Source: Panopea generosa
Taxonomy: Eukaryota > Mollusca > Bivalvia > Adapedonta > Hiatellidae
Direction of reading: 5' to 3'
NCBI GenBank assembly: GCA_029582155.1
Contig: CM055900.1
Span: forward strand, 41,957,236 to 42,021,235
Length of the DNA: 64,000 bases
Numbering within the stretch: position 1 is the stretch's first letter; each line of letters begins with the position of its first letter. Below are positions 3,293-62,665 of the stretch, piece after piece. The translations under genes and the position numbers were made by a program. The notes beneath the pieces were generated by a model. The model was not told the DNA's origin and did no database searches. It saw only the letters and a list, made by a program, of their open reading frames with translations.

Positions 3293-4126
3293 TTTCTATA
3301 TTTATGGTTGGTCAGTTCCATATCTATGATTGGTCAGTTCTGTATCTATGGTTGGTCAGTTCTGTATCTATGGTTGGTCAGTTCAGTATCTATGGCTGGT
3401 CAGTTCCATATCTATGGTTGGTCAGTTCCATATCTATGGTTGGTCAGTTTCATATCTATGGTTGGCCAGTTCCATATCTATGGTTGCTCAGTTTCAGTAT
3501 CTATGGCTGGTCAGTTCCATATCTATGACTGGTCATTTCATAACTATTGCTGGTCAGTTCCATATCTATGGTGGGTCAGTTCCAAATCTATGGCTAGTGT
3601 GTTCCATATCTATGGCTGGTCCATTCCATATCTATGGCTGGTCAGTGCCATATCTATGGCTGGTCCATTCCATATCTATGGCTGGTCAGTGCCATATCTA
3701 TGGCTGGTCCATTCCATATCTATGGCTGGTCAGTGCCATATCTATGGCTGGTCCATTCCATATCTATGGCTGGTCAGTGCCATATCTATGGCTGGTCCAT
3801 TCCATATCTATGGCTGGTCAGTGCCATATCTATGGCTGGTCCATTCCATATCTATGGCTGGTCAGTGCCATATCTATGGCTGGTCCATTCCATATCTATG
3901 GCTGGTCAGTGCCATATCTATGGCTGGTCAGTGCCATATCTATGGCTGGTCCATTCCATATCTATGGCTGGTCAGTTCCATATCTATGGCTGGTCCATTC
4001 CATATCAATGGCTGGTTAGTTCCATATGGCTTGTCAGTTTCAGTATCTATGGCTGGTCAGTTAAATATCTATGGCTGGTCAGTTCCACATATATATGGCT
4101 GGTCAGTTCCATATCCATGACTGGTT
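3293..4126. repeat. 22-bp minisatellite with 44-bp higher-order unit
   Basis: The unit CATATCTATGGCTGGTCAGT plus two bases recurs about 38 times. From about 3610 to 3920 two variants, ending CAGTGC or CCATTC, alternate strictly and make a 44-bp dimer. The left part uses TGGTTGG and the right part TGGCTGG. No frame of the unit contains a stop, so all three plus frames stay open for up to 270 codons; the products are repeat artefacts. Confidence 0.95.
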
Positions 4127-5074
4127 TTACTAAAAGCAAATCATGATAAATTCACTGACCATTACATCTATTTCTACATGAAGTTAAAATTGTGTCACTA
4201 TCAAATGAAAGTACCACAGATATCTTGTTATAGATTTTGTTTTTATTGTTTTGAAAGGGACATAACTCTGACTGATGTTTTAAAGTTGCCCCAAAGGACA
4301 AGTCATACATTTTCGTGTGACAATATATGATATGCAGTGTGTTATTGTCAATAGGAATTGGTATATACAAATCATAAATGCATTCAAAATATTTTTCTAA
4401 TATTTTGTTCACACATTTATGGGGACATTGGGGCTGTTTCATGAACCTTCCTAAGTCAAAGATTTTTGTATAAACACATTATGATACATGTACCTACAGA
4501 CATTTCATTAATGCAAAGTTATTATGAATTTTAAAAGGAATACAATTTATGGAATTTCTTGAAAATAATGTCAAACACCAAAACGAATTTTCCTGATTTT
4601 TGTCTGAAATTTATCAATCTTACACTAAGTTTTGAATGATAGCGATTAAAAATAGTCAATTTAAACTTTCTGATGAAAATACTGTCATTTAGCTCACCAA
4701 CCAGCATTTGATTCACCAATGTTTAATCTGATCTTAGCAATTTAAAAGCTATTAAGATAAATTTAACACTTTTTCACAACATAATTCTGTGATATTTTTA
4801 TTAAGTTTTTGGTCTTGTGGTTAGGGCAACCTCTATGTAAGCAGAAATGAGGCTTCTTTTATCTATGGCAGGGTCATAGCAAAGATTTCTCACACTCAAA
4901 CTCAGCACTATGAGGAATGTTCTAGAACTTGTGTGTTATCATACCACACATCTGTAGTAACATACTCCCCTGTGGTAAAGCTGATATGATATATAAACAA
5001 TATAAAAGAGGTCTCAGGTTTGATCCCAGGCTCAACCAAGTGGCTTCTCATAAACAGCACCCAGTACCTTTTAA
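4127..5074. other. unassigned sequence with old repeat debris
   Basis: The phrase TTTGAAAGGGACATAACTCT near 4250 resembles the AAGGGCAATAACTCT phrase of the pearl-like element at 32.7 kb, so this is probably degraded interspersed repeat. A SINE-like box-B phrase (GGTTTGATCCC) lies near 5018. The 96-codon minus frame at 4152..4442 lies in this debris and is not a supported gene. Confidence 0.35.
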
Positions 5075-5245
5075 CTTAAATACTTAAGACCTAACTCAAT
5101 TTTGACTGGTTACTTATTTATTATATAATAAATATCAAAGAAATCAAATGCATTTTTACTGGAACCAGTCTTCTTAGATTCAAGTTTTTATGTACTAAAG
5201 TATATATTTAAAACCTGTTGCTAAAACAGAAATCTGGTTCAACCC
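5075..5245 (-). mobile_element. diverged MITE, family G
   Basis: On the minus strand this matches the order and many words of the 53425..53623 element, including TTTCTGTTTTAGCAACA, AATCTAAGA, TTGGTTCCAG-like, AAATAAGTAACCAGTCAAAA and TTAAGTATTTAAG. It is an older copy with eroded ends. Confidence 0.5.
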
Positions 5246-7054
5246 AAGAAACAGACTTGAGAGGACTCGAGAGCAAGTCTCACTTGAGAACAAGTCGCAC
5301 ATGCTCTCTATTGAGATGCTTGCTTGTAATTGATTTATAAGGAATTAATACTCATCAATTAACTTAACTGATAAGATATTTTACATAAATAATGAATATT
5401 ATAAGTCATATATTATTCTTCAGACTGTTCAACTGTAGAATAGATTTGCCTGAAAATGAATACACAGTCTGTATGTAACTAGTTCACTTTCGCTCGTATA
5501 CACTTTAATTTTAGCATTTACTTTCGTAACAATTGCTTTGCCATTGTTAATACACAAAGGATAACTGAAAGCAAATCAACATCTTTGTAAAAAAAGAACC
5601 CTATACATTAGAAAGACGAATTCCATTTCTATTTTTCTTTTCATCTTAGTTTTTTAAAACAAGTTTTACAATTTTCTAACAAAAGTAATAATAGATGGTA
5701 TTTAACAGCTAAAAAAAACTCATTCCATCAGATCTTCCAATTGTTGCTTGATAACCTAAAAAACAAGATCATTCGTCATCCAGTCATTACATCTGATTGT
5801 CGATTCCACCATTAAATAAAGCGTCATCCGTACAACACACAGATGAACAATAGCGGAGCAACTTTTTAAATTCACATAAAGTCACATAACGGAATTTAGA
5901 CGCTATAATTATGGAAATAACACATTGATGGGGATAATGCAAATTGGGGAAATCAAAAACGTCTTAATCACACAAACAAGTTCCAACTCACGCTGATGCC
6001 AAGTTCGTATCAAATGAGAAATTAATCCCACAAAATTGGCACTTACGTTGACAAGGCAGGGCGATCTATAACAAAACCGAGCTAATTACAAAAACAATTA
6101 GTGCAGAATTGATCCAGTCACAGACTAAGCTTGCGTTATGTTGCGCACAGGCTGTTCTGTATAAATCAACTCAGATACAATTATTAAAAACAAGTTTGAC
6201 CTAATTAATAAGATAGCTCATTGTAATACACAACTCTATATACATGTATAGAAAAAACTACCTAATTACGGCGAAGATCAAAGGTAATGAATGTTACGAT
6301 TTTTGCATAATTGAAGAATATTAAAGGTGAAGAATTTTGTAACACTGGTCTAATTAAAAAGATTAAAGGTACATTAACATTACCATACCACACATCTACA
6401 AAGACAAGCAATCTGTTGAACCTTTTATTAACCGAGATATCATTTTATAAAAAATTACACAGTATTCATTATTCTTTAAACATTTATTAACTCATCTTAC
6501 TAGGGACATTTGATGTTCAGAGTTTTGTTTAAATCTGTTTTTGTTTTGTTTTTTTAACTAATATACATTCAAAGAAAAATTCACCAAAACAATACTTTCT
6601 GTGTCACTTTAATTATGCCATTTGAAGTATATGAAAACAGTAAGTCAATTATAAATCCAATATACTGTTGTGAAACAATGCCATCTTATTAAATCAACAT
6701 ATAGATAAAAAAAAAAAACATCAACAAATGAATATGCAGAATGAACCTAGAACCTTGATACCTGCAGAACTGCAAATTTTCAGCAAATTCTATCATATTA
6801 CTCAAATTGTCACTTCTTACAACATGCATAAGCCACAGTGATCCTATTCTTGCCATCACTCGTGGCTCTCTGGAATAACACAGGGGTTGGTAATTTAACC
6901 ACAATAATGAACATGACAAAAATTGATAAAATCAACATGACACCCATTCAGAGGATTCCTACCCCTCTGCAGAAATTGACAGTGATTCTATTCTTAGTCT
7001 GAACCACACAGCTACAGCAAGTTTATTTGTTACAATATTAAAATTATACAATAG
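5246..7054. other. unique AT-rich stretch; possible regulatory DNA at 5700-6330
   Basis: No gene seen. The part at about 5700..6330 is less simple in sequence and dense in AATTA, TAATTA and AATAAG words with interspersed GC-rich words such as TTGCGTTATGTTGCGCAC. This resembles animal conserved non-coding elements. The 76-codon minus frame at 6689..6919 has no supporting splice or start context. Confidence 0.25.
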
Positions 7055-7840: not shown

Positions 7841-8672
7841 GCATGCATGTCACTCTGGCAATACTACAACATCCATGTTTCAATACTACAACATGCATGT
7901 CTTTCAGGCAATATTACAACATGCATGTCTCAATACTACAACATGCATGCCAATCTGGCAATACTACAACATCCATATCTCAATACTACAACACATATGT
8001 CTCTCAGGCAATATTACAACATACATGTCTCTCAGGCAATACTACAACATCCATGTCTCTCAGGCAATACTACAACATCCGTGTCTCAATACTACAACAT
8101 GCATGTCACTCTGGCAATACTGCAACATCCATATCTCATTACTACAACATGCATGTCACTCAGGCAATATTACAACATGCATGTCTCTCAGGCAATACTA
8201 CAACATTCATGTTTCAATACTACAACATGCATGTCTCTCAGGCAATATTACAACATACATGTCTCTCAGGCAATACTACAATATCCATGTCTCAGTACTA
8301 CAACATGCATGTCACTCTGGCAATACTACAATATCCATGTCTCAATACAACAACACGCATGTCTCTCAGGTAATATAACAACATGCATGTCTCTCAGGCA
8401 ATATTACAACACGCATGTCTCTCAGGCAATACTACAACATGCATATCTCAATACTACAACATGCATGTCACTCTGGCAATACTACAACATGCATATCTCA
8501 ATACTACAACATGCATGTCTCTCAGGCAATATTACAACATGCATATCTCAATACTACAACATGCATGTCTCTCAGGCAATATTACAACATGCATATCTCA
8601 ATACTACAACATGTATGTCTCTCTGGCAATATTACAACATGCATGTCTCAATACTACAACATGCATGTCTGG
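7841..8672. repeat. composite 22-bp and 28-bp minisatellite
   Basis: Short units (CTCAATACTACAACATGCAT plus two bases) alternate irregularly with 28-base units that carry CTCTCAGGCAATA or CACTCTGGCAATA. Most junctions hold the perfect 10-base palindrome ACATGCATGT. The units lack stops, so plus frames of up to 299 codons stay open; these are artefacts. Confidence 0.93.
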
Positions 8673-9559
8673 ACAGCAACAAGTGACATACACAGCCAGA
8701 CAGCAACAAAACTAGGTGACATACATAACAACACATCAACAAGTGACACTAACATGAAACTATACTATCACAGTTGAATGTTACTTCAAATTTAAGAATA
8801 AATGTATTTAAGTTTATCCAATCCTAAATTGTTTAATGCTATCTTTATTTCTCTCTCCTTACAATGTACGTCCACTGATTATCACTTTTTAACTTGTTTG
8901 ATATAATTTCTTTTTTAACAAAATTTCAGTAAACAGTCTGCCAAAAATGATTTTCTAATATATGAACCAAAAAGCAACAGGGCAACACATTCAAACCATC
9001 AAAGCTCTGTTGTTTTTTCTTGTAATTAGCCAATTAGCTGAAATAAAGAAAGGAATAAACAAATGCCTTGGTTCTCAGGGCCATCAGGTGTCTGTCAGCT
9101 TGGAACAGGAAGTTTTTACCATTAATTAACAAGCTAATTACCAACAGGTTCACAACACATGGGGACTACAGGGGTAACCATATTCCAGTAGCGTGCTCAA
9201 CATGGAACTTTTTAAACTCACACTGAACATATGCCCTGTCCTCTATTTATTTTCTTCCTCTCCATTTATATATGTAACTGATCTATTGATCCATGTATAA
9301 GCATTGAAGGATTAAAACAGTTCTTAAGTAAGGTAACAAGTGTGTTTAAAGTAAATCACAGCATGTTTATTTCTTTGTCTATGTAATCATATATATTGCC
9401 TATATTTAAAAAAGAAGGAAAATGAGTTTTATCAATTACCGGTACTACTATCAATTATTACTTTTGTGATCCAAAATAAGTAAACGGTGTCAAATGGATC
9501 CTGCCCATGTGATCTCACATGAAGAGGGGAAAAAACTCTTTCTTGGCACATTACATAAG
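8673..9559. other. unique sequence; possible regulatory DNA at 8985-9185
   Basis: No gene seen. At 8985..9185 the sequence is complex, with TAATTAGCCAATTAGCTG, CAGGTGTCTGTCAG and TTAATTAACAAGCTAATTA words. Paired TAATTA sites and an E-box-like CAGGTG fit a conserved enhancer, which is an inference only. Confidence 0.25.
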
Positions 9560-18061: not shown

Positions 18062-19915
18062 ATAAGATAATATAAATATACATCATTATGTATCAACATT
18101 TCAACATTTTCAGGCTGCACATTGTCAAAGGGAGACAATTCTATACAAATACAGTATGTATCAACATTTCAACATGTAAGACGAATACTCCGTAAAGGCT
18201 TCACATTGTCAAAGAGAGACAATTCTGTATAAATACAAACTGCATCATTATGTATCAACATTTCAGTATGTAAGACAAATACTCCGTAAAGGCTTCACGT
18301 TGTCAAAGGGAGACAATTCTGTATAAATACAAACTGCATCATTATGTATCAACATTTCAACATGTAAGACAAATACTCTGTAAAGGCTACACGTTGTCAA
18401 AGGGAGACAATTCTGTATAAATACAAACTGCATCATTATGTATCAACATTTCAACATGTAAGACAAATACTCCGTAAAGGCTGCACATTGTCAAAGGGAG
18501 ACAATTCTAAATAAATACAAACTGCATCATTATGTATCAACATTTCAGCATGTAAGACAAATACTCCGTAAAGGCTTCACATTGTCAAAGAGAGACAATT
18601 CTGTATAAATACAAACTGCATCATAATGTATCAATATTTCAACATGTAAGACAAAAACTCCGTAAAGGCTGGAAGTTGTCAAATGAAGACAATTCTGTAT
18701 AAATACAAACTGCATCATAATGTATCAACATTTCAACATTTTCAGGCTGCACATTGTCGAAGGGAAACAATTCTATATAAATATAAACTGCATCATTATG
18801 TATCAACATTTCAACATATAAGACAAATACTCAAAAAAAAGGTGCACATTATCAAAAGTAGACAATTCTGCATAAATACAAACTGCATCATTATGTATCA
18901 ACATTTCGCATGTAAAACAAATACTCCATAAAGGCTTGTGTTGTCAAAGAAAGACAATTCTGTATAAATACAAACTGCATCATTATGTATCAACATTTCA
19001 ATATGTTAGACATCAATACCCCATAAAGGCTGCACGTTGTAAAAGGGATACAATTCTGTATAAATACAAATTGGACCATTATGTATCAACATTTCAACAT
19101 GTAAGACAAATACTCTGTAAACACTGCATATTGTCAAAGGGAGACAATTCTGTATAAATACAAACTGCATCATAATGTATCAACATTTCAACATGTAAGA
19201 CAAATACTCCATAAAAGCTGCACGTTGTCAAAGGGAGACAATTCTGTATAAATACAAACTGCATCATTATGTATCAACATTTCAATATATTAAATATAAA
19301 TACTCCGTAAAGGCTGCATGTTGTCATAAGGAGACAATTCTGCATAAATACAAACTGCATCATTATGTATCAACATTTCGCATGTAAAACAAATACTCCA
19401 TAAAGGCTTGTGTTGTCAAAGAAAGACAATTCTGTATAAATACAAACTGCATCATTATGTATCAACATTTCAATATGTTAGACATCAATACCCCATAAAG
19501 GCTGCACGTTGTAAAAGGGATACAATTCTGTATAAATACAAATTGGACCATTATGTATCAACATTTCAACATGTAAGACAAATACTCTGTAAACACTGCA
19601 TATTGTCAAAGGGAGACAATTCTGTATAAATACAAACTGCATCATAATGTATCAACATTTCAACATGTAAGACAAATACTCCATAAAAGCTGCACGTTGT
19701 CAAAGGGAGACAATTCTGTATAAATACAAACTGCATCATTATGTATCAACATTTCAATATATTAAATATAAATACTCCGTAAAGGCTGCATGTTGTCATA
19801 AGGAGACAATTCTGTATAAATACAAACTGCATCATTATGTATCAACATTTCTACATATAAAACATAAATTCTCTGTAAAGGCTGCACATTGTCAAAGGGA
19901 GACAATTCTAAATCA
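18062..19915. repeat. 94-bp satellite, about 19-20 units
   Basis: Each unit holds GACAATTCTGTATAAATACA, AACTGCATCATTATGTATCA, ACATTTCAACATGTAAGACA, AATACTCCGTAAAGGCTGCA and TTGTCAAAGGGA in that order. The block from GACAATTC to AACATTT is much better conserved than the rest. Open frames at 18683..19157 and 19408..19629 are repeat artefacts; two of them are identical because of the duplication described below. Confidence 0.95.
18861..19804. repeat. 472-bp higher-order duplication within the 94-bp satellite
   Basis: A block of five monomers (about 18861..19332) is repeated head to tail (about 19333..19804) with the same private variants in the same places: TTTCGCATGTAAAACAAATA, GGCTTGTGTTGTCAAAGAAA, GACATCAATACCCC and AAATTGGACC. 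The offset is exactly 472 bases, so the duplication is recent. Confidence 0.9.
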
Positions 19916-26999: not shown

Positions 27000-27642
27000 C
27001 CAATGTCACTGTGTAGAATTACGGACATAATTATGAAGAGTGTTTGAGCAGAAACCAAGAGTACATGTTCAAAACAATCAGGCAGTGACCATACCAAGTC
27101 TAGAAAACTTAGATAATTTCATGTATAATATCATAATACTGAAGTTTTTCTGGAAGCAACCATTTACAAGAGGCCAAAGTGGGCCTTGAATTTGACAGTT
27201 ATGGCACCCCCCCCCCCCCCCCCCCCACCAAGGCCCAGGGGGACCAAGCCATACACAAATCTGATTCACCCTTAGGTATCAAAGCTGCATACATTTCATT
27301 ACGATTGAGCTTATGGTTTTTGAGAAGAAGTCTAAAATGACAAAAGGCGATCACAAAAGGTCATATGAGACAAAGTCTCCGAGTGATCTTAAAATCTGAT
27401 TTGAAAACAGCACTTTATGTCATCCTGGCACTTCCAGGTACAGGTATGTGTACAACATTTATTGTATTTTCTTAAAGATAATATTTTTGTCCCCCCCCCC
27501 CACCCCCCCAATTTTGTAAACTTGGATCAGGAGACAGTAAACAATCCCTATATTTATAATATTAATGCACTCATAACACCAACGTTTCCAGTTTTACATC
27601 TACCGAGCAATGATAAACATGTCTTTAGTACGAGTAGCATAC
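27000..27642. other. interspersed repeat F debris and C-runs
   Basis: AAGCTGCATACATTTCATTA near 27282 and GAGAAGAAGTCTAAAATGAC near 27321 also occur, modified, at 52080 (AAAATTTCATTACATTTGGG, GAGAAGAAGTAAAAAATG). This marks a shared interspersed repeat. Long C-runs lie at 27207..27226 and about 27491..27509. No gene is seen. Confidence 0.45.
27207..27226. repeat. poly-C run of 20
   Basis: Twenty consecutive C residues, the longest homopolymer of this kind in the window; a second run of 10 or more lies at about 27491. Runs of this length are error-prone in assemblies. Confidence 0.9.
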
Positions 27643-29185
27643 TTAAAGGGAATATATCAGGAATTTTTTAAATATTTAAAGTTGGCTATAAACATTTTCC
27701 CCCAATATATCATGCCTATATATATTCACTGACCCTGTTTTGCCAAAAGAATATCAATTTAAACATGCCAAAATAATATAATGAAAAGGGATTTCCTAAC
27801 TTGGACTCGTGCCTAGGTTAGTGTAATATAATTTTCCTGCTTAAAAATGCAATGTATTAAATAAGTCATTTTGATTTCAATTTGATCCATTATACAGATT
27901 GGCATGCTGTAGTAAACATTGTTTCATCTCAGAAAGAGTCTGAATGATAATGCAAAGGTCGCCTAGCAGTATCTAAGTGTTGTTTTTTTTGGTTAGGTCG
28001 CATGAGCGACCGAACCCTACATAAGCGCCAGTTAAGAAATTGACTCTGGGTGCTGCCATATTGAAACGTCACGATCACGTGTTAAAAACATGGCATTCGT
28101 CACATGGAGGTCGCCATTATTTTTTCTAAACCGTGCACCATGTAATGTACAAACGGCTATTGATATTAAAACCTAGTCATGTTCCGACCACTTTCCGGCT
28201 AAAAGGAAAATTCAAATGCAGTGTGTGTAATAATTGATTGTGACGTTTAAATGCACTAATTGAGATCACTATGAATTGTTCTTTGCATATTTAACCAGGG
28301 GAAAAAATGATACTGCCTTAAACCAAGGAATTTTCTTAAACTCATTGGTTAAATGAGGTCTTGAATCTTATATTTTTTGACAATATATCGCCGTTTCTGA
28401 CAGGTTCCTATCGAGTTAATGTAAATAATTTTCAAATAACGAAGTAGTTACTCAATTTTTATATCCTGAACCCATAACAATGGAAATAATAACAAAATTG
28501 AACAGCTACAGTTGTTTATTTTACTCGATACAACAGAAATATAAAGATAGTTTACCGGTGTGACATATTTTCAGCACGTCGTCAGAATCAGATATATTAC
28601 CGAACATGCACAAGTTTTGGAAAAACAGTAATTTTTAACTGTGGTTTTTTAAAAATAATATATCCACAGATTAGTTTAAAGTATGGATACGAATTATTTT
28701 AAAATATATTATGATCACAGTAGTAAATTGTATAGAACATAGCAGTACGTACATTAGACAATATATAAGGTAAGTTTCTTTTTAAATATGCAAATGGCAA
28801 TACATATTGATTGAGATTAGTACATTTAAACATCAAATTTACTATCAGGCATACCTGCAGCCAGGAATTCGCTGTATCAGCCGGAACCTTATTGGGATTT
28901 GGTATCACCCGTGTATTTAGTACCCTGTACAAGGAACCAAACTTACACATTCATTCACTTTAATTACCACATTGTTAAAAGACCTAACTTGTTTTTGAAT
29001 GGGGATATCATTGCAAGATAACACTCCAATTTAAATACAGATTTTGTCATGTTTTGGTGGATCTGACATACCAAGCTACTTGGATTTTATTTATTAATGA
29101 TAATGAAATGTATTTTAACCATTTAAAAAATATTTTTATTTTTTAAGACATTTTTAGACCTTTTTCCCAAATATACTCCCTTTAA
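27643..29185 (+). mobile_element. TTAA-end transposon, family E, 1.5-kb copy
   Basis: The left end TTAAAGGGAATATATCAGGA and the inverse of the right end TTAAAGGGAGTATATTTGGG pair over about 18 bases with mismatches, and TTAA is present on both sides. The length exceeds the 320-bp copy at 21326 because about 1 kb has been inserted near 27991. No transposase frame is present. Confidence 0.6.
27991..28988. mobile_element. possible nested insertion inside the family E element
   Basis: The segment begins GGTTAGGTCGCATGAGCG and ends GACCTAAC, giving a short inverted repeat GTTAGGTC. It is absent from the 21326 copy at the corresponding place. The start carries a palindrome GGTCGCATGAGCGACC. The exact borders are uncertain. 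Confidence 0.4.
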
Positions 29186-33800: not shown

Positions 33801-35372
33801 GCAAACCCAGCCTCATGGTTTTTCATCTGGCAAACATGGGAGTGAACCCAGCCTCATGGTTTTTCATCTGGCAAACATGGGAGTGAACCCAGCCTCATGG
33901 TTTTTCATCTGGCAAACATGGGAGTGAACCCAGCCTCATGGTTTTTCATCTGGCAAACATGGGAGTGAACCCAGCTTCATGGTTTTTAATCTGGCAAACA
34001 TGGGAGTGAACCCAGCCTCATGGTTTTTCATCTGGCAAACATGGGAGTGAACCCAGCCTCATGGTTTTTCATCTGGCAAACATGGGAGTGAACCCAGCTT
34101 CATGGTTTTTCATCTGGCAAACATGGGAGTGAACCCAGTCTCATGGTTTTTCATCTGGCAAACATGGGAGTGAACCAAGTCTCATGGTTTTTCATCTGGC
34201 AAACATGGGAGTGAACCCAGCCTCATGGTCTTTCATCTGGCAAACATGGGAGTGAACCCAGCCTCATGGTCTTTCATCTGGCAAACATGGGAGTGAACCC
34301 AGCCTCATGGTCTTTCATCTGGCAAACATGGGAGTGAACCCAGTCTCATGGTTTTTTCATCTGGCAAACATGGGAGTGAACCCAGCCTCATGGTTTTTCA
34401 TCTGGCAAACATGGGAGTGAACCCAGCCTCATGGTTTTTCATCTGGCAAACATGGGAGTGAACCCAGCCTCATGGTTTTTCATCTGGCAAACATGGGAGT
34501 GAACCCAGCCTCATGGTCTTTCATCTGGCAAACATGGGAGTGAACCCAGCCTCATGGTTTTTCATCTGGCAAACATGGGAGTGAACCCAGCCTCATGGTT
34601 TTTCATCTGGCAAACATGGGAGTGAACCCAGCCTCATGGTTTTTCATCTGGCAAACATGGGAGTGAACCCAGCTTCATGGTTTTTCATCTGGCAAACATG
34701 GGAGTGAACCCAGTCTCATGGTTTTTCATCTGGCAAACATGGGAGTGAACCAAGTCTCATGGTTTTTCATCTGGCAAACATGGGAGTGAACCCAGCCTCA
34801 TGGTCTTTCATCTGGCAAACATGGGAGTGAACCCAGCCTCATGGTCTTTCATCTGGCAAACATGGGAGTGAACCCAGCCTCATGGTTTTTCATCTGGCAA
34901 ACATGGGAGTGAACCCAGTCTCATGGTTTTTTCATCTGGCAAACATGGGAGTGAACCCAGCCTCATGGTTTTTCATCTGGCAAACATGGGAGTGAACCCA
35001 GCCTCATGGTTTTTCATCTGGCAAACATGGGAGTGAACCCAGCCTCATGGTTTTTCATCTGGCAAACATGGGAGTGAACCCAGCCTCATGGTTTTTCATC
35101 TGGCAAACATGGGAGTGAACCCAGCTTCATGGTTTTTCATCTGGCAAACATGGGAGTGAACCCAGCCTCATGGTTTTTCATCTGGCAAACATGGGAGTGA
35201 ACCCAGCCTCATGGTTTTTCATCTGGCAAACATGGGAGTGAACCCAGCCTCATGGTTTTTCATCTGGCAAACATGGGAGAGAACCAAGCTTCATGGTTTT
35301 TCATCTGGCAAACATGGGAGTGAACCCAGCCTCATGGTTTTTCATCTGGCAAACATGGGAGCGAACCAAGCC
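33801..35372. repeat. 41-bp minisatellite, about 38 units
   Basis: The unit is GCCTCATGGTTTTTCATCTG followed by GCAAACATGGGAGTGAACCCA. Identity between units is very high. Variants (GCTTCATGG, GTCTCATGG, GAACCAAGTC, TGGTCTTTC, and a six-T slip) mark a 14-unit higher-order block whose marker GAACCAAGTC recurs with a 575-base offset (about 34171 and 34746). Units carry no spacers, so this is not a CRISPR array. Confidence 0.97.
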
Positions 35373-35632
35373 TTGTGGGTTCAATCCCTGGCCGGGTCAT
35401 ACCAAAGACTTTTAAAATGGTACTAGAAGCTTCCTCGCTTGATGCTCAGCATTTAGAGGAGAGTTCTAGGTCTGGTCGGCCCAGTGTCAGTATAATGTGA
35501 CTGGGTGGGATATCATACCATGTGTCTGCGGCATGATACTCCAGTGTGACAGCACTTAGAATACTGTCTCAAGTAGACACCGCCGCGATATGACTGAAAA
35601 ATTGTTGAAAGCGACGCTAAACACCATACAAC
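35373..35632 (+). mobile_element. tRNA-derived SINE, family B, inside the 41-bp array
   Basis: GTGGGTTCAATCCCTGGC is the box B part of a tRNA-like head. The body contains TACTAGAAGCTTCC, GAGAGTTCTAGGTCTGG, CCAGTGTCAGTATAATGTGA and CTGTCTCAAGTAGACACCG, and it ends CGACGCTAAACACCATACAA. Two further array units follow it, so it sits within the array. Confidence 0.75.
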
Positions 35633-43244: not shown

Positions 43245-43417
43245 GTTACTTTCTTCTTTCACATCACAGATACCATTTTTCAAATTGCCTTTCACACCAC
43301 AGATACCATTTCTCAGACTGCCTTTCACATTACAGATACCATTTCTCAGACTGCCTTTCACATTACAGATACTATTTCTCAGATTGCCTGTTGCACAACA
43401 GATACCATTTCTCAGAT
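43245..43417. repeat. 33-bp tandem repeat, five units
   Basis: ACCATTTCTCAGACTGCCTT plus TCACATTACAGAT repeats five times, immediately left of the 25-bp array. The period is a multiple of three, so all frames stay open (69-113 codons) without coding meaning. Confidence 0.93.
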
Positions 43418-43423
43418 CCATCA

Positions 43424-45815
43424 TACTGATCTACACACTGATCCGTCATACTGGTCTACACACTGATCAGTCATACTGGTCTACAGGTGTCTACACACTG
43501 ATCAGTCATACTGGTCTACAGGTGTCTACACACTGATCAGTCATACTGGTCTACAGGTGTCTACACACTGATCCGTCATACTGGTCTACAGGTGTCTACA
43601 CACTGATCAGTCATACTGGTCTACACACTGATCAGTCATACTGGTCTACATACTGATCAGTCATACTGGTCTACACACTGATCAGTCATACTGGTCTACA
43701 CACTGATCCATCATACTGGTCTACACACTGATCAATCATACTGATCTACACACTGATCCGTCATACTGGTCTACACACTGATCCGTCATACTGGTCTACA
43801 CATTGATCAGTAATACTGGTCTACACACTGATCCGTCATACTGGTCTACACACTGATCCTTCATACTGGTCAACACACTGATCAGTCATACTGGTCTACA
43901 TACTGATCAGTCATACTGGTCTACACACTGATCAGTCATACTGGTCTACACACTGATCCATCATACTGGTCTACACACTGATCAATCATACTGATCTACA
44001 CACTGATCCGTCATACTGGTCTACACACTGATCCGTCATACTGGTCTACACATTGATCAGTAATACTGGTCTACACACTGATCCGTCATACTGGTCTACA
44101 CACTGATCCTTCATACTGGTCTACATACTGATCAGTCATACTGGTCTACACACTGATCCGTCATACTGGTCTACACACTGATCCGTCATACTGGTCTACA
44201 CACTGATCCTTCATGCTGGTCTACACATTGATCCTTCATACTGAGCAATCATACTGGTCTACACATTGATCAGTCATACTGGTCTACACACTGATCCGTC
44301 ATACTGGTTTACACACTGATCAGTCATACTGGTCTACACACTGATCAATCATACTGGTTTACACACTGATCCGTCATACTTGTCTACACACTGATCCGTC
44401 ATACTGGTCTACACACTGATCCATCATACTGGTCTACACACTGATCCATCATACTGGTCTACAAACTGATCCGTCATGCTGGTCTACACATTGATCCTTC
44501 ATACTGATCAATCATACTGGTCTACACATTGATCAGTCATATTGGTCTACACACTGATCCGTCATACTGGTGAGTCATACTGTCTACACAAAGATCCATC
44601 ATACTGATCTGTCATACTGGTCTACACAATGATCCGTCATACTGATCTGTCATACTGGTCTACACAATGATCCTATACTGGTCTACACAATGATCCATCA
44701 TACTGATCTGTCATACTGGTCTACACATTGATCTGTCAAACTGATCTGTCATACTGTGTACACAATGATCCATCATACTGTCTACACAATGATCCGTCAT
44801 ACTGGTCTACACAATGATCCAACATACTGATTTGTCATACTGGTCTACACAATGATTCATCATACTGGTCAACACAATGATCCATCATACTGATCTGTCA
44901 TACTGGTCTACACAATGATTTGTCATACTGGTCTTCACAATGATCCACCATACTGTCTACACAATGATCCATCATACTGATCTGTCATACTGGTCTACAC
45001 AATGCTTCATCATACTGGTCTACACAATGATCCATCATACTGTCTACACAATGATCTGTCATACTGTCTACACAATGATCCATCATACTGATCTGTCATA
45101 CTGGTCTACACAATGATAATTCATACTGGTCTACACAATGATCTGTCATACTGGTCTACACAATGATCTGTCATACTGTCTACACAATGATAATTCATAC
45201 TGGTCTACACAATGATCTGTCATACTGGTCTACACAATGATAATTCATACTGGTCTACACAATGATCTGTCATACTGGTCTACATAATGATCTGTCATAC
45301 TGGTCTACACAATGATTCTTCATACTGGTCTACACAATGATTGTTCATACTGGTCTACATAATGATCTGTCATACTTGTCTACACAATGATTCTTCATAC
45401 TGGTCTACACAATGATAATTCATACTGGTCTACACAATGATCTGTCATACTGGTCTACATAATGATCTGTCATACTGGTCTACACAATGATCTGTCATAC
45501 TGGTCTACACAATGATTGTTCATACTGGTCTACATAATGATCTGTCATACTGGTCTACACAATGATTCTTCATACTGGTCTACACAATGATCTGTCATAC
45601 TGGTCTACATAATGATCTGTCATACTGGTCTACATAATGATCTGTCATACTGGTCTACACAATGATCTGTCATACTGGTCTACACAATGATTGTTCATAC
45701 TGGTCTACACAATAAACTGTCATACTGGTCTACACAATGATTCTTCATACTTGTCTACACAATGATTCTTCATACTTGTCTACACAATGATTCTTCATAC
45801 TAGTCTACACATATT
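43424..45815. repeat. 25-bp minisatellite, about 95 units, two subfamilies
   Basis: The left half (to about 44560) uses ACTGGTCTACACACTGATCC and GTCAT; the right half uses ACACAATGATC in place of ACACTGATC. A 35-bp variant with CTACAGGTGTCTACAC occurs four times near 43480..43610. A ten-unit block repeats with an exact 250-base offset (marker CATACTGATCTACACAC at about 43738 and 43988). Many units contain the palindrome ACTGATCAGT. Confidence 0.96.
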
Positions 45816-48154: not shown

Positions 48155-50555
48155 CTACCCAGATACCTAGACTCACTTATCTAGTACATGTTACTGAACC
48201 AAGACTTACTGATCTAGTACTTGTTACTGAGCTACAACTCACTGATCTAGTACTTGTTACTGATCTAAGATTCATTGATCTAGTACTTGTTACTGAGCTA
48301 AGACTAACTGATCTAGTACTTGTTACTGAACTAAGACTAACTGATCTAGTACTTGTTACTGAGCTAAGACTAACTGATCTAGTAGTTGTTACTGAGCTAA
48401 GACTAACTGATCTAGTAGTTGTTACTGAGCTAAGACTAACTGATCTAGTAGTTGTTACTGAGCTAAGACTAACTGATCTAGTAGTTGTTACTGAGCTAAG
48501 ACTAACTGATCTAGTACATGTTACTGAACTAAGACTAACTGATCTAGTACATGTTACTGAGCTAAGACTAACTGATCTAGTAGTTGTTACTGAGCTAAGA
48601 CTAACTGATCTAGTAGTTGTTACTGAGCTAAGACTAACTGATCTAGTAGTTGTTACTGAGCTAAGACTAACTGATCTAGTATGTGTTACTTAACTAAGAT
48701 TCATTGATCTAGTACTTGTTACTGAGCTAAGACTAACTGATCTAGTAGTTGTTACTGAGCTAAGACTAACTGATCTAGTAGTTGTTACTGAGTTAAGATG
48801 AACTGATCTAGTATGTGTTACTTAACTAAGATTCACTGATCTGGTACTTGTAACTGAACTAAGACTCACTGATCTAGTATTTGTTACTTAACTAAGACTC
48901 ACTGATCTAGTATTTGTCACTAAACTAAGACTCACTGACCTAGTACTTGCTACTGAACTAAGACTCACTGATCTAGTATGTGTTACTTAACTTAGATTCA
49001 CTGATCTGGTACTTGTAACTGAACTAAGACTCACTGATCTAGTATTTGTCACTTAACTAAGACTCACTGATCTAGTATTTGTCGCTAAACTAAGACTCAC
49101 TGACCTAGTACTTTCTACTGAACTAAGACTCACTGATCTAGTATGTGTTACATAACTAAGATTCACTGATCTGGTACATGTTACTTAACTAAGACTCACT
49201 GATCTAGTATTTGTTGCTTAAGTAAGACTCACTGATCTAGTATTTGTTACTTAACTAAGTTTCACTGATCTAGTATTTGTTATTTAACTACGACTCACTG
49301 ATCTAGTATTTGTTATTTAACTAAGACTCACTGATCTAGTATTTGTTATTTAACTAAGACTCACTGACCTAGTACTTGTTAGTTAACTAAGAATCACTTA
49401 TCTAGTATTTGTTTCTGAACTACCACCAATTGATCTAATACTTGTAACTGAACTAAGACTCACTGATCTAGTACTTGTTACTGAACTAAGACTAACTGAT
49501 CTATTACATGCTATTGAGCTAAGACTCACTGATCTAGTATTTGTTACTTAAGTAAGACTCACTGACCTAGTACTTGTTACTTAACTAAGAATCACTGAAC
49601 TAGTATCTGTTACTGTGCTAAGACTAACTGATCTAGTACTTGTTACTGAAGTAAGAATCACTGAACTAGTATCTGTTACTGAACTCAGACTAACTGATCT
49701 AGTACTTGTAACTGAACTAAGACTCACTGATCTAGTACTTGTAACTGAACTAAGACTCACTGATCTAGTACTTGTTACTGAACTAAGACTCACTGATCTA
49801 GTACTTGTAACTGAGCTAAGACTAACAGATCTAGAACTTGTTACTTAACTAAGACTAACAGATCTAGTAATTGTTACTTAACTAAGACTTACTTATCTAG
49901 TATTTATTACTGAATTAAGACCCACTGACCTAGTACTTGTTACTGAGCTAAGACTAACAGATCTAGTACTTGTTACTGAACTAAGACTCACTGATCTAGT
50001 ATTTATTACTGAACTAAGACCCACTGACCAAGTACTTGTTACTGAACTAAGACTCACTGATCTAGTATTTATTACTGAACTAAGACCCACTGACCTAGTA
50101 CTTGTTTATGAGCTAAGACTAACAGATCTAGTACTTGTTACTGAACTAAGACTCACTGATCTAGTATTTATTACTGAACTAAGACCCACTGACCTAATAC
50201 TTGTTACTGAACTAAGACTCACTGATCTAGTACTTGTTTACCGAACTAAGACTAACTGATCTAGTATTTGTCACTGAACTAAGACTCACTGATCTAGTAC
50301 TTGTTACTGAACTAAGACCCACTCATCTAGTACTTATTACTGAACTGAGATTCACTGATCCAGTACTTGTTACTGAACTAAGACACACTGATCCAGTACT
50401 TGTTACTGAACTGAGACTCACTTATCAAGTACTTGTTACTGAACTAAGATTCACTGATCCAGTACTTGTTACTGAACTGAGACTCACTTATCTAGTACTT
50501 GTTACTGAACTAAGATTCATTGATCTAGTATTTATCACTGAACTTAGATTCACTA
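48155..50555. repeat. 33-bp minisatellite, about 72 units
   Basis: The unit is ACTGATCTAGTACTTGTTAC plus TGAACTAAGACTC. The left third (48260..48690) is very homogeneous with TAGTAGTTGTTACTGAGC; the middle (48690..49560) uses TTACTTAACTAAG, which introduces TAA stops; the right third is mixed. The period of 33 keeps a frame LTDLVLVTELR open for 180 codons at 48151..48693. Because the same unit carries stops in the adjacent part and no start or splice context is present, I treat it as non-coding. Confidence 0.93.
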
Positions 50556-54790: not shown

Positions 54791-54918
54791 TAAGTAATTT
54801 CAATGTTCTGTTATATTTCAACTGACAGAATTTTAAACTTTTTTCAACTGTTTGTTAACCATAGGTAACTGACATGATATTTATTTCCAATATATAACTA
54901 TGTTTTTAACTTATTTAT

Positions 54919-54942
54919 GGGTAGTTCTCAGTTATTCAGCAA
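54919..54942 (+). repeat. left terminal inverted repeat of the 3.34-kb element
   Basis: GGGTAGTTCTCAGTTATTC and five more bases; the 24 bases are identical to the inverse of 58234..58257. Similarity stops within a few bases on the inner side. Confidence 0.85.
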
Positions 54943-55304
54943 TTCAGTACCATGGAACTTTGATTATAATTTGTAATAAAAATAAAGTGTATTTGACATG
55001 TTTGTTGTGTTAATACTTTTAGATATGATCTGAATGAATAGTAAAGATAGTTTTATGGAGACATGGTCAGAAAGAAAAAAATTACAACATTTTTAAATTG
55101 AAAAATGCCAGTTTTGACAGGGTCGATTTTGGGACATTTTACCATCAGTATATACAATAAAGTTGTATTGTTACTTTCCGATGGATTATAAAGTCATTAT
55201 TTATGGTAACTGTAAAAACATAAATAAAATTAAAATATAAGCATCTCTAAAAGACTAAAATGCCGATAAAAATTTGATTTTAATAGAAATTAAATTCTGC
55301 GTAT

Positions 55305-56284
55305 GGACGTTACGGTGTCGGTCAATTTTAGTAAGAAACTCTGACATCTATTTTTAGACATTACAAGCATGGACAACATCATTTGCATGTGGGGGTGTTA
55401 GGTTTGTTTGTTTAAAGTTACCTTGTACTTAAGTAGAGTGATATACAGGATTTCACAATAAAAAAATATCATCGAACTTTCCTCAATGTAAAAATGTCGG
55501 TCAATTTGTAACGTCCAAAACGAATCGTCGTTAATTATCAATTTTATGATCGTACCATATCTAACACCCCTCAATGGATAAATCAACATGTCCAAAAATG
55601 CGTCATCAGTTTGTGTGTACACAACTCAACCACCAGCAGGGAGAATATAGAGGTAAGTGTTGTCGGTCAATCAAAAAGTCAGAGTAACGTCCAGAACATT
55701 TCATCACTCTATTGATATAACATCTATAGTGAATCCATGTACTATTGTGATGATTGCAAACAATAGACAATGAATGTTAATCGAAAGAAAAGATGGAAAT
55801 TGCCGTATTGACGCAGCTAGCGGTCCGTGTTATGAAATGAGTATACGGACGTTATACCTTGACATATTATCGTGTTTTGGATGTTACTATTTGACATGGT
55901 CAACTTGTCTACACCAAATGTCCTACGCTTTAATGTAATTAATAACCATGATGTATACCCCAGTATTTGATATCATACCATTTTCTCTGTAAATGAACAC
56001 AACAATTCTAGTTTGTCTATTCTGTCACCAAATATCTCCTGCGTCGTGTGTTGGACGTTACGGTTGCGGACGTTAGGTAATGTTGTGGATGTGACTTTGA
56101 CATTTGTTTCTACTTGAATGTGTAACATTCAAAACTGATTTTATATTATCTCTAATTGAAATAATATGAGAGGCAAGAAGATTAACAATTAATTATCCTT
56201 TTTTGGTAGTATGAGTTTGCCAGTACTCCCGATAAATAAGAAATATTATCAATTCATGGATGTTTTCTTTGTTATGGATGTTAC
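55305..56284. promoter_or_regulatory. left cluster of GTAACGTCC-type motifs
   Basis: Sites within one mismatch at 55305, 55508, 55684, 55847, 55879, 56053, 56068 and 56276 (a weaker one at 56087). Three of the first sites are accompanied by GTCGGTCAAT (55317, 55496, 55672). Both orientations occur. They could be transposase-binding repeats or remnants of a repeated sequence; no function is proven. Confidence 0.5.
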
Positions 56285-56577
56285 ATTTGACACAAGAATT
56301 TTGGAACAAACAATTATGTGTTAAAGTCTGAAACATAAATTATTAATTAATTGATCTAAGTTTACAAAATATCCTTTAGAATGTTATTCTCATGTTAACA
56401 GTTTAATTTTGAAAAATTTAATTGTAAATAATAATGCTTAGTACCAGTATTAATGATATAAAATATATTATATTAAAAACAATAGCTACAAAAATACTAA
56501 TTTTGTTCTCTTAATTACTTTAAGAAAATCTCATGCCCATAATTATGTTGCTTTATCATTTAATTTAAATAAATTTA

Positions 56578-56866
56578 CAGACAAAAAATAACTACAAATT
56601 TATCAAGAAACAATTTTTTATGTCCAAGTTGATCAATGGCCATGGGTTTGTTATTTAAACCATTTCCTTGAGCTTGGAGATCTTTGGCAGCTCTAGGAGA
56701 CCAGGCACAGTGATCTTTGAGGATATTGTGAGTGTTATCTCCTCTCCAGATTTGGCTACGAGTGGGCTTAAGAGATTCTTCTATGTATTCAAAGGTAAGA
56801 ACAGTGCCAATACACTTTAATATCAGTTTAGATAAAATAAAAGTAAATTGCCTTCTTACTCTCTCT
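56578..56866 (-). pseudogene. open GC-richer segment inside the 3.34-kb element, possibly coding
   Basis: The minus strand is open for about 96 codons without an early ATG, ending in TAA. Its middle part reads KPTRSQIWRGDNTHNILKDH and its end DQLGHKKLFLDKFVVIFCL. The region 56640..56800 has clearly higher GC than its surroundings. On the plus strand the same region has a 45-codon frame ending at a perfect donor (TATTCAAAG then GTAAGAAC). One of the two is probably a relic exon or part of a transposase; I cannot decide which and recognise neither. Confidence 0.25.
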
Positions 56867-57179
56867 CAGTAGGATTAATATACTAATTATTTACTTTTAT
56901 AGCGCTATAACTTTGTTATATGTGTACAAATAAACTTTTTGACTGTATAAAATACATAATAATAATATCAAAACTTTTAGTTGTGTATTTTCAGACCTTT
57001 GAGATGTCTCAGGAAGTTGTGAAGATGCCATTTTAATAGCAACAAAAGATTCTTTAGGGATCAAAAGAAGAAAAAACTTTGAAATATTATTCACTGACAT
57101 ATATGGATATAGTTTATTAATCTTCCAATAAATTTTAATTGTCATTTGTCAGAAGAGACTTGTATACTTTGTCAATACA

Positions 57180-57430
57180 TTTTCTGGTGGGGCTCATTTA
57201 TATACTATAGATATACTAAGTGCTGCTAGTCTAGTTCACAAAGTTTTGGAAAGCACTGTAATAATACAGTGAGCACATAGTGGCTTTAAGTGATTTTCTA
57301 TACTAGTTTGTTGGTGGGGCTCATAAACTTTATCTATAGTATATACTACTAGGAGCCTAGTACACAGATGTTGGGAAATCCTTCTTATAATACAGTTAGC
57401 ACATGTAGATAAATACTAGAAGTAAGACAA
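57180..57430. repeat. 126-bp diverged direct repeat inside the 3.34-kb element
   Basis: TGGTGGGGCTCAT occurs at 57186 and 57312, followed in both copies by TATACTA, CTAGT(T/A)CACA, TTGG(A/G)AA, AATACAGT(G/T)AGCACAT in the same order. Confidence 0.75.
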
Positions 57431-57668
57431 CATAATTTATTTATTTCAATATTACTAATATAACCCTTTAATATTACTAGTAGTTACTAGTTCAGTAGTT
57501 AGCAGTGAAACGAGTTCAAACCACTAAAGTACAAGTTTAAATATATATGTATACTAGGATAAAATGTTATAACACATGGCCAAGTGTGATAAGATGTACA
57601 CTATTAACAACAATATAACAACAATTATAAAACAATACAGAAGTAATCTTGTAATTTGTGTATGTTGT

Positions 57669-58068
57669 GGACGTTATTTTTAAGTTGTGGACGTTACATA
57701 TTTGCATATTTGTCAATTGTCAAAGAGTAACGTCCATATGAATTGTGACAAACTATTCTGATATATGTATGTCAGTTTGAAGTTAAAATGAAAAATCACA
57801 AGGATATGTTCTCTAATTGAAAGTTTTGAGTACTATTTCAGTTTGTTCGGATATAGATAGCAACGTGCTGAACTTTAATCATACAAATTTTGAGTAACAT
57901 CCACAACTACAAAATATATATAATTACTTTTGTTCTGGTCATATTTGATTTTTTCTATGATTATTATTTCATAGGTATTCTCCAGTCTTATCTAATAATC
58001 ATAAGTTATTGTATTGAAATCACCCATTAAATGCATAAACTATTGTCAATAAATTAAATGTAACGTCC
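57669..58068. promoter_or_regulatory. right cluster of GTAACGTCC-type motifs
   Basis: Sites within one mismatch at 57669, 57689, 57727, 57894 and 58060, in both orientations, lying within 600 bases of the right terminus. Confidence 0.5.
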
Positions 58069-58233
58069 AAAACCTTGAGGTTACCATACATAAATTTTGA
58101 TTTACATGATTTTCTTGTCACAAACTATCTTTTTATTATTAAAATCATACAGAGGAATGTTTAAACTATATTTTAACACCAAAATATTTACTCTAAGTTA
58201 TAATTTAATAAATCCATCATTGTGTCTGGAAAT

Positions 58234-58257
58234 TTGCTGAATAACTGAGAACTACCC
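58234..58257 (-). repeat. right terminal inverted repeat of the 3.34-kb element
   Basis: Exact inverse of the left terminus, ending GAATAACTGAGAACTACCC. Confidence 0.85.
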
Positions 58258-58323
58258 TTATATAACATCAACTTACTGTAAAACAAGTTTTTGCAACTAA
58301 GACAAATCATGCTTGAAATTTTC

Positions 58324-59205: not shown

Positions 59206-62200
59206 CAAGGAGGTAGAACTAGAAATATGGTCTGGACCTAGAGATGATAGACCCAGAAGTAGCAATACAATCTGGACTTAGAGATGATGGAGGTAGAACT
59301 AGAAATACAATCTGCACCTAGAGATGATGGAGGTAGATCTCGTTATACAGTCTGGGCCTAGAGATGATGGAGGTAGAACTAAAAATACAATATGGACCTA
59401 GAGATAATTCAGGTAGAACTAGAAATACAGTCTGGATGTAGAGATGATGGAGGTAGAACTACAAATATAGTCTGGACCTAGAAATGATAGAGGTAGAACT
59501 TGAAATACAGTCTGGACCTAGAGATGATTGAGGTAAAACTAGAAATACAATTTGGACATAGAGATGATGCAGGTAGAGCCAGAAATACAGTCTGGACCTA
59601 GAGATGATGGAGTTAGGACCAGAAATAGTCTGGACCTAGATATGGTGGAGGTAGAAATAGCAATGCAGTCTGGACCTAGAGATGATGGAGGTAAAACTAG
59701 AAATATGGTCTGGACCTAGAGATGATGCAGGTAGAACTAGAAATACAGTCTGGACCTAGAGATTATGGAGGTAGAACTAGAAATACAGTCTGGACCTAGA
59801 GATGGTGAAACTAGAACTAGCAAAACAGCCAGGACCTAGAAATGATGAAGGTAGAAGTAGAAATACAGACTGGACCTAGAGATGATAAAGGTAGATTTAA
59901 AAATACAGTCTGGATGTAGAGATGATTCAGGTAGAACTAGAAATACAGTCTGGACCTAGAGATGATTGAGATTGATCTAGAAATAGTCTTTACTTAAATA
60001 TGATGGAAGTAGAACTAGAAATACAGTCTGGACCTAGAGATGATTGAGATTGATCTAGAAATACAGTCTGTACCAAGAGATGATGGAAGTAGAACTAGAA
60101 ATACAGTCTGGACATAAAGATAATGGAGGAGAACTTGAAATACAGTCTGGACCTAGAAATGATGCAGGTAAAGCAAGAAATAGAGTCTGGACATAGAGAT
60201 AATTCAGGTTAAACTAGAATTACAGTCTTGATCTAGAGATGATGGAGGTAGGACCTGAAATACATTCTGGACCTATAGATGATGGAGTTAGAACTAGAAA
60301 TACAGTATTAACCTAGAGATGATGGTGGTTGAACTAGAAATATAGTCTGGATCTAGAGATGATGGCGGTATAACTAAAATATAGTCTGGACCTTTAGATG
60401 ATGCAGGTAGAATCAGAGATACAGTCTGGACTTAAAATGATTTAAGTAGAACTAAAAATAGGGTCTGGACCTAGAGATGATGGAGGTAGGACTAGAAATA
60501 CAGTCTGGACCTAAAGTTTATGCAGGTACAGCCAGAAATACAGTCTGAACCTAGAGATGATTGAAGTAGAATTAGAAATATGGTCTGGACCTAAAGATAA
60601 TGGAGGTAGAACTAGCAATACAGTCTGGACCTAAAGATGATGGAGGAAGAACTAGAAATACAGTCTGAACTTAGAGATGATTGAGGTAGAACTAAAATAT
60701 GGCCTGGATCTAGAGATGATAGACCCAGAAGTAGCAATATAATCTGGACTTAGAGATGATGGAGGTAGTACTAGAAATACAATCTGGACCTAGAGATGAT
60801 GGAAGTAGATCTAGCAATACAGTTTGGACTTAGAAATGATGGAGGCAGAACTTGAAATACAGTCTGGACCTAGAGATGATTGAAGTAGAACTAGAAATAC
60901 GGTCTGGACCTAGCGACGATGGAGGTAGGACTAAAATACAGTCTTGATCTAGAGATGATGGAAGTTGAACTAGAAATACAGTCAAGACCTAGAGATGATT
61001 GAGGTAAAGCCAGAAATACAGCCATGACCTAGAGATGATGCAAGACGAACTAGAAATACAGTCCAGACCTAAGGATGATGGAGGTAGAGGCAGAAATACA
61101 GTCTAGACCTAGAGATGATTGAAGTAGAACTAGAAATACAGTCTTGACATAGAGATGATGGAGGTAGAACTAGCAATACACTCTGGACATAGAGATGATG
61201 GAGGTAGAACTAGAAATAGGGTCTGGACCTAGAGATGATGGAGGTAGGACTAAAATATAGTCTTGATCTAGAAATGATTGAAGACGAACTAGAAAAACAG
61301 TCCAGACCTAGAGATGATGGAGGTAGAGGCAGAAATACAGTCCAGACCTAGAGATAACTGAAGTAGTACTAGAAAAACAGTCTTGACATAGAGATGATGG
61401 AGGTTAAACTAGCGATACACTCTGGACCTAGAGATGATGGAGGTAGAACAAGAAATACAGACTAGATCTAAGGATGATGCAGGTAGAGCTAGAAATAAAG
61501 TCTGGACGTAGAGATGATCGAGGTAGAACTAGAAATAGGGTCTGGACCTAGAGATGATGGAGGTAGGACTAAAATACAGTCTTGATCTAGAGATAATGGA
61601 AGTAGAACTAAAATACAATCCGGACCAAGAGATGATGGAGGTAGAGCCAGAAATACAGCCTGGACCTAGAGATGATGGAGGTACAACTAGAAATATAGTC
61701 TGGACTGAGAGATAATAGATGTAGAACTAAAAATACAATCTGGACCTAGAGTTGACAGAGGTTGAACTATAAATACAGTCTGGACCTAGAGATTATTGAG
61801 GTAGAACCAGAAATACAGTCTGGACCTGGAGATGATTGAGGTAGAATCAGCTATACAGTCTGGACCTAAAGATGATTGAGTTAAAACCAGAAATACAGTT
61901 TGGACCGAGGGATGATTGAGGTAGAACCAGAAATATAGACTGCACCTGGAGATGATTGAAGTAGAACCAGAAATACAGTCTGGGCCTAAAGATGATTGAG
62001 GTAAAACCAGAAATACATTCTTGACCTAGAGATGTTCATTGGAGGTAGAACCAGAAATACAGTCTGGACCTAGAAATGTTGGAGGTAGAACTAGAAATAC
62101 AGACTGGACTTAGAGATGATTGAGGTAGAACCAAAAATACAGTCTTGACCTAGAGATGATTGAGGTAGAACCAGAAACACAGCCTGGACCTAGAGATGTT

Positions 62201-62665
62201 CACTGCAGTTAGAACCAGAAATACAGTCTGGACCTAGAGATGATTGAGGTAGAACCAGAAATACAGTCTGGGCCTAGAGATGTTCATTGGAGGTAGAACC
62301 AGAAATACAGTCTGGACCTAGAGATGTTGGAGGTAGAACTAGAAATACATTCTGGACCTAGAGATGATTGAGGTAGAAACAGAAATACAGTCTGGACCTA
62401 GAGATGATTGAGGTAGAACCAGAAATACAGTCTGGACCTAGAAACGTTCATTGGAGGTAAAACCAGAAATACAGTCTGGACCTAGAGATGTTGGAGGTAG
62501 AACTAGAAATACAGTCTGGACCTAGAGATGATTGAGGCAGAACCAGAAATACAGTCTGGACCTAGAGATGTTGGAGGTAGAACTAGAAGTTTAGTCTGGA
62601 CCTAGAGATGATGGAGGTAGAACTAGAAATACAGTCTGGACCTAAATAGGATGGAGGTAGAACTA
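59206..62665. repeat. 40-bp minisatellite, about 86 units
   Basis: The unit is GACCTAGAGATGATGGAGGT plus AGAACTAGAAATACAGTCTG. It corresponds to the sub-block already present in the 153-bp units at its left. The left and middle parts are diverged. The right part (from about 61780) is more uniform with AACCAGAAATACAGTC and GATGATTGAGG, and contains a variant GATGTTCATTGGAGG that recurs about every four units (62030, 62280, 62450). Confidence 0.95.

Follow-up and report, generated by a model that had tools for sequence, protein, structure and literature searches.

What is the 3339-bp element that lies between perfect terminal inverted repeats (TIRs) in a 64,000-nucleotide stretch of the Panopea generosa genome, and what moves it? 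The stretch, which we call the window, is C7:41957236-42021235 of the host assembly (1,474,161,289 bases in 39 contigs). A first-pass annotation had proposed a DNA transposon of unassigned type with perfect 24-bp TIRs and motifs that might bind transposase. The two repeats do agree at 24 of 24 bases, and the termini read GGGTAG (Table 1). TTAT on either flank constitutes a 4-bp target-site duplication (TSD), a feature absent from that annotation, and the number of copies, their TSDs, the empty sites and a relative that carries a transposase now support assignment to the TIR type of DNA transposon. Sequence comparison indicates that the 3.3-kb element is almost certainly a non-autonomous, internal-deletion derivative of an autonomous-type element of ~9 kb in the same genome. 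We consider the whole explanation, in which such derivatives are mobilized in trans, a motif array plays a role, and the superfamily is likely Sola, to be very probable. An unassigned repeat would in this way become a two-part system, namely a non-autonomous family and its transposase-bearing relatives, with a target duplication and a candidate binding site.

Table 1. Features of the element, in window coordinates
Feature	Positions	Strand	Remarks
Left TSD, 4 bp, TTAT	54915..54918	.	
Non-autonomous DNA transposon, 3339 bp	54919..58257	+	TIRs, genome copies, comparison with long form
Left TIR, 24 bp	54919..54942	+	24/24 bases match right TIR
Left GTAACGTCC cluster	55305..56284		Starts 55305-, 55508+, 55684+, 55847-, 55879-, 56053-, 56068-, 56276-; 4 exact, 4 with one mismatch
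Relic, probable last large coding exon of transposase	56628..56794	+	Ends before GTAAG donor-like site; two frames in window copy
Two imperfect ~95-bp copies (74%)	57185..57404	+	Part of element without match in long relative
Right GTAACGTCC cluster	57669..58068		Starts 57669-, 57689-, 57727+, 57894+, 58060+; 3 exact, 2 with one mismatch
Right TIR, 24 bp, perfect	58234..58257	-	
Right TSD, 4 bp, TTAT	58258..58261	.	

A 22-mer from the TIR occurs exactly at 96 places in forward and 98 in reverse orientation in the 1.47-Gb host assembly, and its reversed control at none in either orientation. From the first 100 of these 194 places, which lie on C1 to C10 only, we took 35 TIR-to-TIR pairs and added the window copy, giving 36 copies. 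Perfect 4-bp TSDs flank 32 of the 36; at other lengths, perfect duplications were seen in nine copies for 2 bp, three for 6 bp, and none for either 5 or 8 bp. The copies lacking a perfect 4-bp TSD are L016 and L024, both 3.5 kb from TIR to TIR, together with L031 and L040. Seventeen different 4-mers make up the 32 perfect TSDs, most of them AT-rich (ATAT, the commonest, accounts for 9 of the 32); others include ATTC, AACA and GTTG, and TTAA is absent.

Paralogous empty sites tell the same story. Nine rows representing five copies passed the filter for spanning empty sites, and six pairings were viewed. The empty site of L023 in L051 has the 4 bp once and identical, and those of L023 in the window (27635-27852), L025 in L022, and L041 in L006 have the 4 bp once with one change each. 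In the pairing of L025 with L030 there is a gap at the junction; the alignment of L035 with L036 stops short of the junction and was not counted. These sites are paralogues, 72-88% identical to the targets, not alleles. Together with the copies they fix the target duplication, which the first-pass annotation had left to be established, at 4 bp, and the element is evidently neither a single copy nor one without an empty counterpart. The window itself holds a member of the repeat into which L023 inserted, an empty relative (27635-27852) 75% identical to the target site.

A family consensus was derived as the majority of 28 of the 36 copies, chosen by length (3250-3400 bp) with eight left out. 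These range in length from 3267 to 3373 bp and depart from it by 0.60-3.30% substitutions, so the burst of amplification would be recent when measured against neutral change, and the 3.3-kb family thus appears to have been amplified recently. No open stretch of more than 95 codons was found in the consensus. Among the TIR-to-TIR copies listed, the larger L011, L022, L025, L028, L041 and L046-L048 were considered as autonomous elements and rejected, each being a short copy with foreign sequence inserted. A second family sharing the TIR was likewise sought and rejected: when position 27 after the TIR 22-mer was set to A or G, the two followers covered, one place was obtained, 161 bp of the same family, and GGGTAGTTCTCAG with any base but T next to it occurs at three places, none with family sequence.

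Some copies are reduced to their ends. In L003, L051 and L059, on C1 and C2, the match to the consensus stops at 1324-1344, and the end is 88% like the consensus; these three are 96-99% alike, flanks included, and therefore represent a single older end-only copy that was segmentally duplicated. L044 and L045, which agree at 99.6% across 4.1 kb, retain 82 bp of the end before different sequence begins. Other repeats lie in or beside the copies. L047, a 22-kb copy at C1:43124631-43146531, is a short element split by an insert with frames of 567 and 331 codons (2025-3729 and from 4437 on), presumably a non-LTR retroelement. L025 (1437-2648) and L041 (1669-2703) each contain a nested repeat whose ends are CAGGGCT...-like, and this repeat also lies next to a third copy of the element (L020 1-347). 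Positions 2359-4109 of L028 hold an insert of 1.75 kb whose inverted ends are 41 bp long (93%), nested in an 87%-identical copy, and frames at 3439-5150 of L049, directly adjoining an element copy, look to us like the remnant of a hAT transposase.

A longer form with the same ends was reached by way of the motif pattern treated below, which led to C2:30478272, with a solitary TIR lying 8 kb away. Genome-wide the pattern has 422 places, and among 100 of these, six (judged by eye) lie away from known copies; the reversed control pattern occurs at 62 + 53 places, and single 14-mers are therefore not specific. The long relative, C2:30477685-30486644 (L072 with L056), measures 8960 bp, has TIRs matching at 23 of 24 bases and the TSD ATAA/ATAA, and supplies the full-length transposase-bearing relative that the first-pass annotation lacked. 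The short consensus matches it over positions 1-1441 (83%), 1531-2131 (81%), 2221-2364 (80%) and 2752-3358 (90%); consensus positions 2365-2751 have no match in it. Between the first two of these matches the long form has ~6.1 kb that are absent from the short form and that hold an open reading frame (ORF) of 990 codons counted from the first ATG. The two forms have in common the TIRs, ~1.45 kb at the left, the greater part of ~1.4 kb at the right, and the motif clusters. Because the two forms are 80-90% identical, the C2 copy is, as judged from its sequence, a relative of the short family and not its exact parent.

How widespread is the long form? The first 673 residues of its ORF match 82 places in the host genome, the best being C2 (100%), C15 (95%, three stops) and C3 (80%, nine stops); the remaining matches are 28-89% identical, some of them decayed and in pieces and several without a stop. 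A marker from the left end of the long form is exact at four loci, on C2, C3, C4 and C15, and at all four a transposase match lies downstream on the same strand, at ~2.4 kb on C2, C3 and C15 and at 10.5 kb on C4. One more place, C2:30604166, differs from the marker by a single base and belongs to the end of a diverged short-form copy, L058. TSDs are perfect for the long copies on C2 (given above) and C4 (AGCT/AGCT) and read TAAT/TAAC on C15; in the C3 copy the right TIR is damaged and a clear TSD is lacking. The right end of the C4 copy is 95.5% identical to that of C2 over 2.0 kb.

A trace of the lost coding region appears to persist in the short element. Window positions 56628-56794 correspond to a stretch of 56 residues in the long form that is flanked by splice-like sites, and the window relic gives matches at C7:42013863-42013949 and C7:42013912-42014028. 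This exon stretch matches 135 places in the host, most of which are short copies by position. For twelve of the 135, one of the 82 transposase matches lies upstream on the same strand and no more than 10 kb away, at distances of 1.2-5.7 kb (the count takes in all 135 x 82 matches; hand-picked subsets of 36 of the 135 and 52 of the 82 gave the same 12). Six of the 12 are in relatives (on C7, C20, C21 twice, C3 at 38 Mb, and C14) whose cores are 31-40% identical to the long form's protein, P0001. For one further match of the 135, located in a short copy on C5, a transposase match lies 45 kb off and is arranged differently. Given the position of the exon downstream of transposase matches, we read the relic as most likely the transposase's final large coding exon, which survived removal of the middle and is bounded by what would be splice sites judging from the sequence. 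The occurrence of the same exon downstream of distant transposase matches led us to reject capture of a host gene as the source of the internal coding relic. Downstream of the core of a C7 relative, a distant one, L073 1-1500 (C7:30638300-30639800) has an open frame with VVGDGNCLPR, which is reminiscent of the beginning of an OTU protease domain; the frame has no match in Pfam, and the stretch has none to P0001.

To which superfamily does the transposase belong? Several familiar groups are set aside by the target duplication. The duplication of hAT elements is 8 bp, a length found in none of the 36 copies; Kolobok and piggyBac elements target TTAA, which is missing from the 17 4-mers described above; and Tc1/mariner duplicates TA, as against 4-bp TSDs such as ATTC, AACA and GTTG. 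CACTA/EnSpm elements, with TSDs of 2-3 bp, are ruled out by the GGGTAG termini and the 4-bp TSD. Searches for relatives of the protein were negative: the 990-codon ORF has no match in Pfam, NCBIfam or PDB sequences, the transposase has none in phages, viral contigs or prokaryote contigs, an Rfam search gave no match, and one further Pfam scan gave matches below the curated cut-offs only. Two structure models, with mean pLDDT of 34.2 and 33.2, were unusable for a catalytic fold. In the literature we found no transposon with GGACGTTAC in titles and the beginnings of abstracts, and nothing on the peptide DFAENY. The C-terminal part of the 990-codon frame (L056 ~4340 to 5280) contains RQPRG-type and acidic repeats.

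The traits of the element, as distinct from protein matches, fit Sola. Sola transposases are of the DDD type, and P0001 has a candidate triad in D411, D501 and D542, residues that are invariant in comparison with one 44%-identical relative, as are other acidic residues in this comparison of two sequences. Sola1 and Sola2 duplicate 4 bp, as does the present family (32 of 36 copies at 4 bp, none at 5 bp), with AT-rich duplications in Sola2 (excerpts of PMC3627910 and PMC10741241). The reported ranges for Sola, mostly 2-9 kb in size with TIRs of 11-1124 bp (an excerpt of PMC10741241), take in the 8960 bp and the 24-bp TIR of the long form. Loss of coding capacity has a parallel as well, some family members of Sola2 in Dictyostelium having lost most of their transposase (an excerpt of PMC3627910). 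We judge Sola to be the probable superfamily, with some reserve, the match being one of traits as described (TSD, size, TIR length, candidate aspartates).

The main alternative is AcademX, the Academ lineage with TSDs of 3 or 4 bp. The TSD length fits (PMC10045372, in part), and Academ elements have been amplified in bivalves (PMC10294476, in part); but Academ lineages encode a helicase or nuclease (PMC10045372, in part), and neither was detected when Pfam was run on seven plus-strand ORF stretches of the long form. AcademX in place of Sola seems to us rather improbable. More doubtful still is a transposase from a superfamily outside those in Repbase. Such a transposase would account for the lack of matches in Pfam, NCBIfam, PDB sequences, phages, and viral and prokaryote contigs alongside 82 matches in the host; but the libraries searched hold few eukaryotic transposases, so that absence of matches says little, and the lengths of TSD and TIR and the overall size fit Sola (an excerpt of PMC10741241). 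There is, by the same token, only a slim chance of an undescribed transposase lineage, marked by a 4-bp TSD and a two-sided array of 14-bp motifs reaching 1.4 kb, in which the numerous deletion derivatives, all with the array still in place, would be driven by a handful of copies that bear a transposase.

Whatever the superfamily, the ends carry a conspicuous array. In the window element GTAACGTCC occurs 13 times, seven exact and six with one mismatch, in both orientations and in two lateral clusters (Table 1) with none at up to one mismatch between them, all as the first-pass annotation had described; the remaining 60.7 kb of the window has no exact occurrence and one with a single mismatch. 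These numbers are far above those of shuffled sequence. The mean number of exact occurrences was 0.09 in 100 shuffles for the whole window, as compared with seven observed, and 300 dinucleotide shuffles of the element alone gave a mean of 0.003 exact occurrences (maximum 1) and of 0.25 at up to one mismatch (maximum 2). Each of the 28 near-full-length copies has 12-14 motifs at up to one mismatch, four to seven of them exact. The consensus has 14 sites, spread across 1.4 kb of the left end and 0.6 kb of the right; what they have in common is a stretch of 14 bp, RTAACRTCCANAAC. The long form on C2 has 12 motifs at up to one mismatch, six exact; their starts fall within 387-1391 and 8372-8763, and the intervening 7 kb are free of motifs.

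We regard the GTAACGTCC motif as probably a transposase-binding site. From sequence and arrangement, it is reasonably likely that the 14-bp motif is where the transposase, or a partner protein, would gather at the ends and select them. Could the sites instead bind a host regulator, or be what remains of an internal duplication in an ancestor? Conservation gives that idea some room. Of the 14 consensus sites, 13 have a recognizable counterpart in the long form and one has been lost; eight are unchanged and five changed, three of these five differing at CpG only, and CpG decays fast. With the lost site included, the motif cores are identical at 114 of 126 positions (90.5%) and the sequence elsewhere at 1609 of 1874 (85.9%), an excess that is not significant, 788 of 5000 random placements being equal or better. 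Dropping the lost site would increase the figure for the motifs, but such a choice would be post hoc. The sites also reach 1.4 kb from the left end, as against ~200 bp for Ac (PMC3260210, in part). But the sites lie scattered in either orientation and have little in common beyond the 14 bp, and the 13 matched sites flank an empty 7 kb in the long form, all of which speaks against an origin or role unconnected with the transposase and leaves such an origin or role unlikely, if worth keeping in mind.

The steps of transposition can be tentatively laid out as follows, where the sequences themselves show the 4-bp duplication on insertion, the ends common to both forms and the long form's ORF. Loss of the middle of the long form would have yielded the 3.3-kb form, with ends, motifs and exon relic staying in place. 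The protein of the long form would be a transposase of the DDD type, acting from its candidate residues named above; supplied by the few long copies, it would bind the ends and cut at both TIRs, the RTAACRTCCANAAC array serving to gather it or a partner protein there. Insertion would proceed with a 4-bp stagger at mostly AT-rich sites. On established DNA transposon biology, the 3.3-kb copies would be mobilized in trans by the long-form transposase.

The array may resemble in its logic, by analogy, the repeats of Ac and the sub-terminal motifs of CACTA elements. Work on sub-terminal motif arrays has dealt with plant elements, Ac and Spm among them. AAACGG repeats within ~200 bp of the ends bind Ac transposase and are kept in Ds2, and the Ac/Ds system of maize, a hAT, includes deletion derivatives that, like those here, have the TIRs and sub-terminal binding motifs of the full element (an excerpt of PMC3260210). 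The present family differs from Ac/Ds in having a TSD of 4 rather than 8 bp, a different TIR and motif, a 1.4-kb rather than ~200-bp spread of sites, and a 990-codon ORF without a hAT match in Pfam. CACTA/EnSpm elements, too, have sub-terminal motifs that recur in either orientation and are unequally represented at the two ends (an excerpt of PMC2613891); our element differs from them in its GGGTAG rather than CACTA termini, its TSD of 4 rather than 3 bp, and its lack of a tnp2 match in Pfam. AcademX, alike in TSD (3 or 4 bp; PMC10045372, in part), differs in that no accompanying nuclease is seen in the long-form ORF stretches scanned. The descriptions of Sola, as far as excerpts of PMC10741241 and PMC3627910 go, mention no sub-terminal motif array, unlike the element here. 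If the element is indeed a Sola, it would offer a test of an array logic like that of Ac and Spm in a group described, in those excerpts, without one.

Finally, we note that minisatellites are abundant in the window, at 18155-19909, 33804-35373, 43415-45811, 48169-50554 and 59209-62665. A minisatellite of 40 bp x 86 copies starts ~1 kb to the right of the element, and one array of 41 bp x 38 is 97% uniform.
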